From: Gemmatimonadales bacterium
GTDB lineage: Bacteria; Gemmatimonadota; Gemmatimonadetes; Gemmatimonadales; GWC2-71-9
Direction of reading: 5' to 3'
Assembly: GCA_025928645.1 (NCBI GenBank)
Contig: JAICJD010000003.1
Location: forward strand, 1-56,069
Length of the DNA stretch: 56,069 bases
In this document: positions 11,924 through 17,027 of the stretch, one piece after another
How the letters are laid out: the number at the start of each line of letters is the position of its first letter
Numbering within the stretch: the first letter of the stretch is position 1
Program-made: the position numbers and the translations under genes
Notes under the pieces: generated by a model
What the model saw: only the letters and a program-made list of their open reading frames with translations
Told to the model about the DNA's origin: nothing
Database searches by the model: none

Positions 11924-13978
11924 CTAAACCTCCACCCCAAGCTCCGAAAACACAAACGACCAGGTGTCGGTCAACTCCTCCAGTACCTTGGCCAGCGGCT
12001 TCCCCGCCCCATGGCCGGCTCTCGCCTCGAGCCGCAGGAGCACGGGGCGGCCGGACGTCGTTGCCGCCTGAAGGCGGGCGGCCATCTTCCGCGCGTGCAT
12101 GGGATCGACCCGGGTGTCGCTCTCTGCGGTGGCGAGGAGGACCGCCGGATACGCGACGCCCGCCTGCACCTGATGATAAGGCGAATATGCCCGGAGCCAG
12201 CCGTAGGCTTCGGCGTCCTCGGGCGAGCCGTATTCGGGAATCCAGAGCCGCGCGATCAGGAACCGGTGGTAGCGCAGCATGTCGAGCAGCGGCACCTGGA
12301 TGACCACGGCGCGGAACAGCTCGGGCCGCTGCGTGAGCACCGCGCCCATGAGAAGGCCGCCGTTCGAGCCTCCCGCGGCCGCGAGCCGCTCCGGCCGGGT
12401 ATAGCGCTCGCGCACGAGCCACTCCGCGGCCGCGATGAAGTCGTCGAAGCTGTTCTGCTTGCGGCCCAGCATGCCGCCCTGGTGCCAGGCCTCGCCGTAC
12501 TCCCCGCCGCCCCGAATGTTGGGAATGGCGACCAGCCCGCCGCGCTCGAGCCAGAGCAGCAGCGAGCGCGAGAAGGCCGGCGTCATGCTGATGTTGAACC
12601 CGCCGTAACCCGTGAGATACGTCGGCGCCGTTCCATCCCGGGCGAGGCCGCGCCGGTGGACCAGGAACATGGTCACCTCCGTGCCGTCGCGCGAGCGCAC
12701 CGCCGCCTGGCTCACTTCGTACCGTTCGGGCTCCACGTCTGCCTCGACCCTCCGCCAGAGCTCCTGCTCTCCGGACTCCACGTCGAGCCGGTACACGGTC
12801 GGCGGCACGGTGTACGACGAGAACCCGTAGAACAGCTCGCGGCCGTCCCACTCCGCGCCGAGGCCGAACAGGCTGCCGAGCGCCGGCAGCGGCACTTCCC
12901 GGCGAAGGCCGCCGTCCAGGTCGGCGAGGCGCAGGCGGGATGACGCGCGCTCGAGGTAGCTCAAGGCGAGCCGGTCGCCCAGGACGCTCGCGCCCTCGAG
13001 CACCGCCTCGGGCCGGGGGGGCACCAGCTCGCGCCAGTGGCCGCGCTCGGGACGTTCCGGATCGACCTCGTACATGCGGTAGGTCGGCGCGTCGAGGTTG
13101 GTCCGGAGATACAGACGTCCGCGCACGACCTCGCCGTCGAACGAGAACGGCAGGTTCTCGGCCACGGGCACGAGCGCCGGCGACACCGTGCCGCCCGCGC
13201 GGTCGCCGAGGTAGAGATCGGTCTGGTCGAACGTCCGGGCGACGCTCACCACGAGCCAGCGCCCGTCCGGCGACACGCTCATGCCCGGCCAGTGCTCCTT
13301 CTCCCTCGGCGCGAACACCAGCTCGTCGGCGTCGGGATCCATGCCGAGCCGGTGGAAGTAGATCGCGCGGTGGTAGTGCTCCTCGCCGTTGGGCACCGTG
13401 CCGGGCGCCGGATAGCGGGTGTAGTAGAAGCCCGAGCCCTCGGGCAGCCACGCGAGGTCCGCCGCCCGGGTGCGGTCGATCCGCTCGGCCAGCGCGGTGC
13501 CGTGCTCCACGTCGAGGACGTGCAGCACGCTCTGCTCGCTGCCGTCGCGCGAGAGCCCGTAGGCGAGAAGCCGGCCGTCGTCGCTCGGATAGTACCAGTC
13601 GAGGGCCGTAGTCCCGGCGGGGTCCAGCGCGTTGGGGTCCACGGCGACGCGATCGTCGCCGTGCACGCCTTCGCGTACGTAGAGCACGGGCTGGTTCTGG
13701 CGTCCGTCGCGGCGCAGGTAGAAATATCGCCCGCGCGCGGGCGCGGGCGCGCTGACGGCGCCGATCGCGAGCAGCTCATCGAGCCGCCGCCGGATCGCGT
13801 CGCGTCCCGGCACGGCAGCGAGCCAGCGCTCCGTCAGCGCGTTCTGCCGTTCGGTCCAGGCGCGGACCGCGGGATCGTCGCCGTCCTCGAGCCAGCGGTA
13901 GGGGTCGGCGACGGTGTCGCCGTGGAGGGTCTCGACCGCCTCGACCGTCGGGGTCGGGGGATACTCGGGCTCAGTCAC
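11924..13978 (-). CDS. Prolyl oligopeptidase (S9A serine peptidase)
   Basis: Cleaves short peptides after proline. The 684-residue protein has the S9A layout: a short N-terminal helical part (PPTPTVEAVETLHGDTVADPYRWLE), a seven-bladed propeller (about residues 75-425) and a C-terminal alpha/beta hydrolase domain. The nucleophile is S538 in GGSNGG, the acid is in SDTRVDP, and the histidine is in AGHGAG near the C-terminus. There is no signal peptide, so it is cytoplasmic, unlike some exported homologues. GTG 13978 is chosen because the family N-terminus begins there and it overlaps the pfkA stop by 8 bases. Confidence 0.92.
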   Translation of the reverse strand: MTEPEYPPTPTVEAVETLHGDTVADPYRWLEDGDDPAVRAWTERQNALTERWLAAVPGRDAIRRRLDELLAIGAVSAPAPARGRYFYLRRDGRQNQPVLYVREGVHGDDRVAVDPNALDPAGTTALDWYYPSDDGRLLAYGLSRDGSEQSVLHVLDVEHGTALAERIDRTRAADLAWLPEGSGFYYTRYPAPGTVPNGEEHYHRAIYFHRLGMDPDADELVFAPREKEHWPGMSVSPDGRWLVVSVARTFDQTDLYLGDRAGGTVSPALVPVAENLPFSFDGEVVRGRLYLRTNLDAPTYRMYEVDPERPERGHWRELVPPRPEAVLEGASVLGDRLALSYLERASSRLRLADLDGGLRREVPLPALGSLFGLGAEWDGRELFYGFSSYTVPPTVYRLDVESGEQELWRRVEADVEPERYEVSQAAVRSRDGTEVTMFLVHRRGLARDGTAPTYLTGYGGFNISMTPAFSRSLLLWLERGGLVAIPNIRGGGEYGEAWHQGGMLGRKQNSFDDFIAAAEWLVRERYTRPERLAAAGGSNGGLLMGAVLTQRPELFRAVVIQVPLLDMLRYHRFLIARLWIPEYGSPEDAEAYGWLRAYSPYHQVQAGVAYPAVLLATAESDTRVDPMHARKMAARLQAATTSGRPVLLRLEARAGHGAGKPLAKVLEELTDTWSFVFSELGVEV

Positions 13979-15050
13979 CCAGGCAGATCCCCAGGTCGCG
14001 GGCGGTGCGGATGGTGTCGCAGTCGAGCGGGACGAACTTGGCCCGGCCCACGACGTTCTCGAGCGGGATGCGGGTGATGTCCTGCCCGTTGAGGCCCACC
14101 ATCGTCCCGAACGCGCCCTCGGCGATCGCCCGCACGGCCGCGGCGCCGAACCGGAGCGCCAGCAGCCGGTCGTAGGTCGTGGGCGACCCGCCGCGCTGCA
14201 GATGCCCCAGGACGAGGGTCCGGGTCTCTTTGCCGGTGTGCACCTCGATGGCGCGGGCGACCTTGCTCGCGATCCCGCCGAGCCGGTCCACCGTGCCCAC
14301 GCCCCGCCGCTCGAGCAGCTCGATCGCCCCGTCCTTGGGACGGGCCCCCTCGGCGGCCACCACGATGCTGAAATGGCGGCCGGCCTCTTCGCGGCTGCGG
14401 ATCTTGCCGCACACCTTCTCGATGTCGAACGGGATCTCGGGCAGGAGGATGACGTCGGCGCTGCCGGAGAGGCCGCTGTAGAGCGCGATCCACCCGGCAT
14501 AGCGGCCCATCAGCTCGACCACGATCACGCGGTCGTGGCTCTCGGCGGTAGAGTGGAGCTTGTCGATCGCCTCGGTCGCGGTGCTCACGGCCGTGTCGAA
14601 CCCGAAGGTCCGCTGGGTGCTGCTCACGTCGTTGTCGATCGTCTTCGGCACGCACACCACCGGGAGCCCCTTGCGCCAGAGATCGTGCGAGATCTGCAGG
14701 CTCCCGTCGCCGCCGATAGAGACCAGCGCGTCGAAGCCGCTCGCCTGAAAGGCGGCCACGAGGTCGTCCGAGCGGTCGCGCTCGATGGCCTCGCCCTGAT
14801 CGTCCCGGGAGATGTAGCGGAAGGGATTGCCCCGATTGGTGGTGCCGAGAATCGTGCCGCCGAGGTGGGTGATCCCGCGGACCTCGGCCGGGCCGAGCGG
14901 GACGACGCCGTTGAAGGACAGCAGGCCCTCGTAGCCCCGCTGGATTCCGTAGGACTTCCAGCCCCGATGGTAGGCCGACAGCACGACCGCACGGATCACC
15001 GCATTCAACCCCGGCGCGTCGCCGCCGCCGGTGGAGATGGCAATCCGCAT
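13971..15050 (-). CDS. pfkA: 6-phosphofructokinase
   Basis: Phosphorylates fructose 6-phosphate to fructose 1,6-bisphosphate. The 359-residue protein starts MRIAISTGGGDAPGLN. The phosphoryl-donor site is GGDGS (residues 113-117), with glycine where pyrophosphate enzymes have aspartate. The catalytic loop is PKTIDND (135-141), with lysine as in group III enzymes. This G/K combination is the pattern of actinobacterial ATP-dependent group III PFKs, so ATP is the likely donor. The gene starts one base after the SelW-like gene and its end overlaps the peptidase gene. Confidence 0.93.
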   Translation of the reverse strand: MRIAISTGGGDAPGLNAVIRAVVLSAYHRGWKSYGIQRGYEGLLSFNGVVPLGPAEVRGITHLGGTILGTTNRGNPFRYISRDDQGEAIERDRSDDLVAAFQASGFDALVSIGGDGSLQISHDLWRKGLPVVCVPKTIDNDVSSTQRTFGFDTAVSTATEAIDKLHSTAESHDRVIVVELMGRYAGWIALYSGLSGSADVILLPEIPFDIEKVCGKIRSREEAGRHFSIVVAAEGARPKDGAIELLERRGVGTVDRLGGIASKVARAIEVHTGKETRTLVLGHLQRGGSPTTYDRLLALRFGAAAVRAIAEGAFGTMVGLNGQDITRIPLENVVGRAKFVPLDCDTIRTARDLGICLGD

Positions 15051-15051
15051 G

Positions 15052-15279
15052 TCAGCCCGACTGCCGGATCAAACGCATGATCTCCCCAGGCTCCGGATGC
15101 CGCCGGAGCGCCCGCTTGGAATAGATGAGTTTGCCGTCCACGGTCACCTCGAAGACACCGCCGGAAGATGGAATGAGACGGACCTCGGCGTCGGGCCACG
15201 CCTGCTTGAGCTCAGCCGCCAGACTGGCGGCTCGGGGTTGGTAGTTTCAGACGACGCAAAACTCGATAACCGCGCGCAT
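15052..15279 (-). CDS. selW: SelW-like selenoprotein (Rdx family, CXXU) with in-frame TGA
   Basis: A 75-residue SelT/SelW/SelH (Rdx) thioredoxin-like redox protein, readable only if codon 11 (TGA at 15249-15247) is selenocysteine. The reading is MRAVIEFCVVU then NYQPRAASLAAEL, with the CXXU motif exactly where SelW proteins carry it. The downstream part GGVFEVTVDGKLIYSKR continues the family match with no break. An AAGGAG ribosome site (15290-15285) sits 5 bases before the ATG. A hairpin with a GUC loop lies 22 bases after the TGA (see SECIS entry). The stop is one base before pfkA. A mutated Cys codon or sequencing error is the main alternative; selABC genes must exist elsewhere. Confidence 0.85.
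15214..15232 (-). promoter_or_regulatory. Putative bacterial SECIS hairpin
   Basis: Immediately downstream of the TGA codon, AGCCGCCA pairs perfectly with TGGCGGCT around a GTC apical loop. The loop begins 22 bases after the TGA and has G at its first position. This fits the bacterial SECIS consensus (upper stem of at least 4 pairs, loop G in the first two positions, loop 16-37 bases from UGA). It is coding for the Rdx protein at the same time. Confidence 0.7.
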
Positions 15280-15364
15280 TACGACTCCTTGTCGCATCGG
15301 GGATGCAGGCCGTCGAATCGTAGCGGAGACCGAAGAGCAATGCCAACCCTGGTGACGCGCCTCC

Positions 15365-15401: not shown

Positions 15402-17027
15402 ATGCGAACCTACCCACAGCGTGCCACCCGCCCGGCCGCCCGGACCGGCGTGCTGGTCGGCGGACTCCTGCTGCTGGCCTTGAGTCACACGGCGGCGGCG
15501 CAGCAGCGGAAGTATCTCTTCGAGGTCGGGGCGGCGGGGCTGTACCAGTCGTTCGATACCGCCACCAAGCTGGGCGGCAGCGTCGGCGGGAGCGGGCGGA
15601 TCGGGGTGTGGTTGCCGCTCAACTTCTCCGTCGAAGCCGAGGGGCTGTTCACCTCGCCGAAAAGCGACGTGGGCAGCAATTCGGTCGGGGTGCGGAATCT
15701 GGCCATCTCGGCGCTGTACAACGTGCTGATCGGCGGGTCAAATTCGGTGTTCCTCCGCGCCGGGCTGGGGTCGACCAAGTACGGCAGCGAATGCCCCGGC
15801 GTGGCCTCGCCCGACGATCCTGCGTGCGGCTCGAGCACGGCCTTCATCGGCGGCGCCGGGTTTCGCGTGGGCGTGACGCCGATCCTCATGGTACGGGGCG
15901 ACGGCCTCCTGCTCCGCAACCGGAGCAAGGGGCAGCCGAACGCTTCACCCCCGGTCGCGCCGCGGACCGTGCTCAACTACGGCGCCAGTCTCGGGCTGAG
16001 CGTCATGCTGGGCAGCCGCCCGATCATGGACGCCGACGGCGACGGGGTGCTCGACAACCGCGACCGCTGCGCCGACACGCCGGCGGGCGCCACGGTGGAC
16101 TCGCGCGGGTGTCCGAGCGACAGCGACGGCGACGGGGTGCCCGATGGCGTGGATCGCTGCCCCACAACGGTCGCCGGCGCGTCGGTGGACTCGCGCGGCT
16201 GCTCGCAGGACACCGACGGCGACAACATCCCCGACGGGCTCGACCGCTGCCCCGACACGCCGTCCGGCGTGCTGGTGGATCCGCGCGGCTGCCCCAAGGA
16301 CAGCGACGGAGACCAGATCCCGGATGGGCTGGACCGCTGCTCCGACACGCCCCACGGCGCCACCGTGGACGCCCTCGGCTGCCCGGGCGACGAGGACGGC
16401 GACGGCGTGCTCGACGGACTGGATCGGTGCCCGCGCACGCAGGCGGGTGCCGCGGTGAACGCGGAAGGCTGCTCGCAGGGCCAGGCCCCGAGCCGCCCCG
16501 CGCCGTCGGGCGCCGCGCCGCCTGCCCAACCCGGCCAGGCGGCGGCACCCCCCGCCCAGCGAAGCGGCGGCACCCCCAATGCCCAAGCGTCGCCGAGGCC
16601 GGCGATCGACACCAACGGCCGGGTCATTCCCCGGCAGAACGTGACCGTGCCGCGCTCCGCGGCGGGAATGGGACCGGTCAGCGCGTCCGTGCTGTCGGGC
16701 GTGAGCTTCGTGCCGGGCACGGCCCGGCTGCAGCCGTCGGCGTACGAGACGCTCGACTCGATCGCCGATCTGCTCCACCGGAACCCATCGGCGCACGTCG
16801 AGATCGGCGCGCACACCGACAAGAGCGGCTCCGCGAACGACGATCAGCGCATCACCTCGCTTCAAGCCGAAGCCGTACGCGACTACCTGGTGGTCAAGGG
16901 CGTGAGCTACCAGCAGGTCGTGGCGCGCGGGTACGGCTCGTCGGTGCCGCTCACCCCCGACACGACGCCGCGGGGGCGGGAAGCCAACCGCAGGGTCGAA
17001 ATCCGTCCGGTGACCCCGGGGCCATGA
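15402..17027 (+). CDS. OmpA-family outer-membrane protein with thrombospondin type-3 repeats
   Basis: A 541-residue protein. The layout is a signal peptide (ending near TAAAQQ, residue 34), an eight-stranded beta-barrel-like N-domain (about 36-205), five calcium-binding TSP3 repeats of the DADGDGVLDNRDRC type (about 208-365), a Pro/Ala/Gln linker and a C-terminal OmpA-like peptidoglycan-binding domain (about 425-535). The domain keeps the aspartate of HTDKSG and the GREANRRVEI end. The arginine normally found 15 residues after that aspartate is glutamine (SLQAEAV), so diaminopimelate binding may be altered. It starts at a leaderless promoter. Confidence 0.9.
   Translation: MRTYPQRATRPAARTGVLVGGLLLLALSHTAAAQQRKYLFEVGAAGLYQSFDTATKLGGSVGGSGRIGVWLPLNFSVEAEGLFTSPKSDVGSNSVGVRNLAISALYNVLIGGSNSVFLRAGLGSTKYGSECPGVASPDDPACGSSTAFIGGAGFRVGVTPILMVRGDGLLLRNRSKGQPNASPPVAPRTVLNYGASLGLSVMLGSRPIMDADGDGVLDNRDRCADTPAGATVDSRGCPSDSDGDGVPDGVDRCPTTVAGASVDSRGCSQDTDGDNIPDGLDRCPDTPSGVLVDPRGCPKDSDGDQIPDGLDRCSDTPHGATVDALGCPGDEDGDGVLDGLDRCPRTQAGAAVNAEGCSQGQAPSRPAPSGAAPPAQPGQAAAPPAQRSGGTPNAQASPRPAIDTNGRVIPRQNVTVPRSAAGMGPVSASVLSGVSFVPGTARLQPSAYETLDSIADLLHRNPSAHVEIGAHTDKSGSANDDQRITSLQAEAVRDYLVVKGVSYQQVVARGYGSSVPLTPDTTPRGREANRRVEIRPVTPGP

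Follow-up and report, generated by a model that had tools for sequence, protein, structure and literature searches.

The window, which here means the whole stretch of DNA analysed (56,069 nucleotides from a Gemmatimonadales bacterium), contained on its minus strand a short gene of the Rdx/SelW family with an in-frame TGA, followed directly by pfkA. The features of the locus were as follows.

15052..15279, minus strand: selW-like (Rdx family) predicted selenoprotein gene, 75 residues, stop codon included in the coordinates
15285..15290, minus strand: ribosome-binding site AAGGAG, read directly 5 nt upstream of the selW ATG
15247..15249, minus strand: in-frame TGA at codon 11, predicted Sec of the CXXU motif (C8-V-V-U11), conserved as TGA in 77/77 homologues aligned at this position
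15214..15232, minus strand: bacterial-SECIS-type hairpin AGCCGCCA-GUC-UGGCGGCU, supported by folding, covariation and the loop G
13971..15050, minus strand: pfkA, 6-phosphofructokinase (PFK_mixed subfamily, TIGR02483), assigned by family match and synteny
15402..17027, plus strand: divergent neighbour, an outer-membrane protein with a beta-barrel, TSP3 repeats and an OmpA domain, sharing the intergenic region with selW

The 75-codon frame, the ribosome site and the single base between the selW stop (codon 76, 15054-15052) and the pfkA ATG at 15050 had all been described in an earlier note made from the letters of this DNA, and each was found as described. The terminal stop of selW is also TGA, and apart from the TGA at codon 11 the frame was intact. 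Translation of the minus strand from 15279 to 15052, with U at codon 11, gave the predicted product MRAVIEFCVVUNYQPRAASLAAELKQAWPDAEVRLIPSSGGVFEVTVDGKLIYSKRALRRHPEPGEIMRLIRQSG. The CXXC or CXXU motif by which SelW-like members of the Rdx family are recognised was present near the N terminus as C8-V-V-U11.

Membership of the Rdx family

With codon 11 read as C, the product matched PF10262 (Rdx) in Pfam with an E-value of 6.7e-23 and a score of 81.1 bits against a curated cut-off of 22.6, far beyond chance. This match spanned residues 4-73, and the similarity claimed on both sides of the TGA was thereby borne out. When stops were read through in a scan of the whole genome, the selW locus was the only Rdx match (8.2e-20), with one TGA inside it. 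The NCBIfam model NF041051 (SelTWH_Campy; SelT/SelW/SelH family (seleno)protein) matched at 1.5e-29, with 102.1 bits against a curated cut-off of 88; its name refers to Campylobacter-type bacteria, whereas the present host belongs to a different phylum. The gene had been called hidden, which is right insofar as a standard ORF caller would cut it short or overlook it, but a curated model exists that it passes. From its family membership, the product is expected to adopt a thioredoxin-like fold.

Bacterial SelW-like selenoproteins have been known since 2005-2006, and the window gene adds one more. In common with those described (PMC1088965, PMC1794560, PMC9312934) it has the pfam10262 Rdx domain, the CXXU motif, an in-gene SECIS-type hairpin with a loop G and the bacterial Sec machinery; it differs in its position directly upstream of pfkA. 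In the consulted portions of these three papers, neither Gemmatimonadota nor a selW-pfkA pairing is mentioned. In PMC1088965, SelW-like is given as the most abundant selenoprotein family of the Sargasso Sea set, its function is called unclear and a redox role is suggested from the CXXU motif; the 2022 review lists the family as pfam10262 with CxxU (PMC9312934). A redox activity of the window protein would likewise follow by analogy from its motif and family.

Conservation of the TGA and of the hairpin downstream of it

A search of genome contigs (genome_contigs) returned 80 homologous loci. The nearest, titled Gemmatimonadales, Gemmatimonadetes or Gemmatimonadota, showed 53-71% identity, and the more distant ones came from Desulfobulbaceae and their relatives, Acidobacteria, Planctomycetota, Poribacteria, Chloroflexi-type bacteria and others. 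In all 77 homologues whose alignment covered it, across many phyla, the codon aligned to codon 11 was TGA, which confirmed the CXXU motif with TGA at 15249-15247 proposed in the earlier note; the alignments of the other three loci start downstream of this codon. Since the search patterns carried Cys at the codon-11 position, the excess of TGA was not an effect of the query.

The hairpin starts 14 nt past the TGA, and the two strands of its stem are alignment columns 18-25 and 29-36, numbered from the T of the TGA (column 1). Among 46 distinct sequences, standard pairs occupied 90.5% of the stem cells, and five of the eight stem pairs showed changes on both sides. The covariation score was 0.364, compared with a mean of 0.164 after shuffling (0/500 shuffles reached 0.364) and at most 0.118 in controls slid away from the hairpin. 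The loop G, at 15224 in the window, was invariant in 78/78 sequences while its codon specified Ser, Gly or Arg. Ser at this codon was written AGY in 41/41 cases, against 44/239 for the serines that these genes carry further downstream (Fisher p about 1e-25, with codons treated as independent). Kinship among the sequences is ignored in these statistics. Because the G is invariant across Ser, Gly and Arg codons and Ser is always AGY, the constraint acts on the RNA and not on the protein. The folding energy of the single hairpin of the window was modestly better than that of its shuffles (z -1.75, 9/200), so the case for the hairpin is a comparative one. A scan with Rfam around selW gave sub-threshold chance matches only. 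The alignment thus showed what is characteristic of bacterial selenoprotein genes, a SECIS stem-loop closely following the UGA, with a G in its small apical loop. Eukaryotic selenoprotein W shares the Rdx family and the CXXU motif with the window gene, but its SECIS lies in the 3' untranslated region, whereas the hairpin here is within the coding region just past the UGA.

The tight spacing to pfkA and the location of the hairpin, past the TGA but ahead of pfkA, would also suit a different arrangement: translation would truly end at the TGA, leaving a leader peptide of 10 residues that controls pfkA by way of the hairpin, and the likeness to Rdx beyond the TGA would be a relic. The region past the TGA, however, kept 47-71% identity as far as other phyla, and pfkA was not found beside selW in any homologue locus fetched from them. 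The distal part must be translated, because its similarity persists in loci of other phyla without an adjacent pfkA, and a leader peptide is therefore very improbable.

Selenocysteine machinery in the genome and the phylum

The earlier note had deduced selenocysteine machinery from the gene and named the absence of selA, selB or selC from the genome as the result that would speak against it; the opposite was observed, and the full selA/selB/selC/selD set is present in the genome of the window. This genome (G000) is a MAG of 294 contigs totalling 3.89 Mb, with 97.09% completeness and 0.66% contamination. The tRNA-Sec with anticodon TCA scored 66.6 bits on contig C191, over the cut-off; it was counted only above the cut-off because the model gives weak matches to other tRNAs in all control genomes. 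Matches were also found for selA on C263 (2.8e-136), for selB on C286 (over its cut-off, its N- and C-terminal regions sharing a reading frame) and for selD on C158 (Cys form, 5.4e-110). These genes lie on separate contigs of the MAG, and their common origin is supported by the binning, at this level of contamination, and by the G+C of the stretches carrying them (0.71-0.73), which is similar to that of the window.

With the gene, its conserved UGA, the covarying hairpin and the full sel set observed, we are highly confident that the window gene encodes a SelW-like bacterial selenoprotein with SelB-dependent Sec at UGA codon 11 and is the first gene of a selW-pfkA pair, and the earlier reading of it is supported as essentially right. 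In the cell, SelB carrying Sec-tRNA-Sec would bind the hairpin that closely follows the UGA, and selenocysteine would be inserted at codon 11; the product would be an Rdx-family protein of 75 residues whose redox motif is CXXU. This insertion is predicted from the sequence.

Among 298 genomes of the phylum, 150 had an Rdx match and 223 had SelA; Sec use is thus a common trait of the phylum. This trait goes unmentioned in the text of the selenium surveys searched; one of them, published in 2016 and covering over 5,200 organisms (PMC5029168), does not name Gemmatimonadetes in its text, figures and supplements aside. The literature joining selenoprotein or selenocysteine with Gemmatimonadetes or Gemmatimonadota consisted of few papers, on other subjects by title and abstract. 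Of the Rdx genes listed for the phylum, nearly all contained one TGA. SelA was found in 137 of the 144 genomes in which a TGA-type Rdx gene was seen (odds ratio about 15, kinship ignored); this number leaves out G051, G128 and G195, which had stop-free Rdx matches only, and G013, G115 and G196, whose matches were not listed. In the seven TGA-type genomes without a SelA match, SelB was over the cut-off in 7/7 and tRNA-Sec in 6/7, and SelA is therefore probably missing through incomplete assembly.

One relative, G128, whose genome is complete in a single contig, had no SelA match and neither SelB nor tRNA-Sec above cut-off. Its pfkA-adjacent Rdx gene (L134) has TGC at the codon-11 position and GCG in place of the loop G. 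This single case fits what loss of Sec decoding would predict, and it supplies a natural replacement of Sec by Cys in SelW in a relative without Sec machinery above the cut-offs. The TGC of G128 could also be taken to favour a pseudogene or sequencing error in the window, by which TGC or TGT of a CXXC Rdx gene had changed to TGA. With TGA conserved in all of the covering homologues, a sequencing error is excluded; a decayed gene, with the rest of its frame intact, the covarying hairpin retained and one TGA in nearly every listed Rdx gene of the phylum, is scarcely credible. Genome-wide reassignment of TGA to an ordinary amino acid without site-specific Sec recoding, for which no supporting point was found, is hardly conceivable, as TGA is the ordinary stop of both selW and pfkA, and tRNA-Sec, SelA and SelB are all encoded in the genome.

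A second Rdx subfamily of the CXXC type (CTGCRW or CPRCRW), without TGA, occurred in a handful of Gemmatimonadota genomes (L105, L106, L108), and a relative carried an additional Rdx match, weaker than its first, that contained two in-frame TGAs (G145:C55:638-853).

Three other candidate Sec sites were observed in the host genome. In each, the family match runs across a TGA, and the sequence that follows the TGA can fold. An FdhA-like molybdopterin enzyme (G000:C51:3540-4814; L141) has an in-frame TGA at SCNRT-U-H (SCNRT-U-HAPSVVGL) and, past it, a hairpin with GGUCUG at its apex; it is likely a second selenoprotein of the genome. A second molybdopterin oxidoreductase match (G000:C105:1458-2873, minus strand; L142) has a single in-frame TGA and, beyond it, a strong hairpin, and a peroxiredoxin-like protein (G000:C15:19337-19705, minus strand; L140) has TGA in PGNDTPG-U, a TXXU-type site. 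With several TGA candidates in the genome, the Sec machinery therefore has several likely clients.

The selW-pfkA pair

In the Gemmatimonadota group, pfkA lay directly 3' of selW in all 17 testable loci (L025-L034, L036-L041 and L044, in addition to 13971-15279 of the window; an eighteenth was cut by the end of its contig), with short gaps or overlaps. The same adjacency occurred in four further genomes, three with TGA forms and one with the Cys form of G128. This phylum-wide pairing is the least ordinary part of the locus, and no description of an operon of selenoprotein W and phosphofructokinase was found in the literature searched. The tight arrangement suggests that the two genes are co-transcribed.

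The synteny also raises the speculative idea that SelW in Gemmatimonadota is a partner of the adjacent phosphofructokinase, acting as a Se-dependent redox protector or switch of glycolysis. We consider this rather unlikely; if true, a bacterial family of unclear function would gain a physiological role. The conserved pair makes the function of bacterial SelW testable and offers a lead to it. On the other side of selW, the OmpA/TSP3 protein on the opposite strand was often found upstream in the nearest relatives as well.
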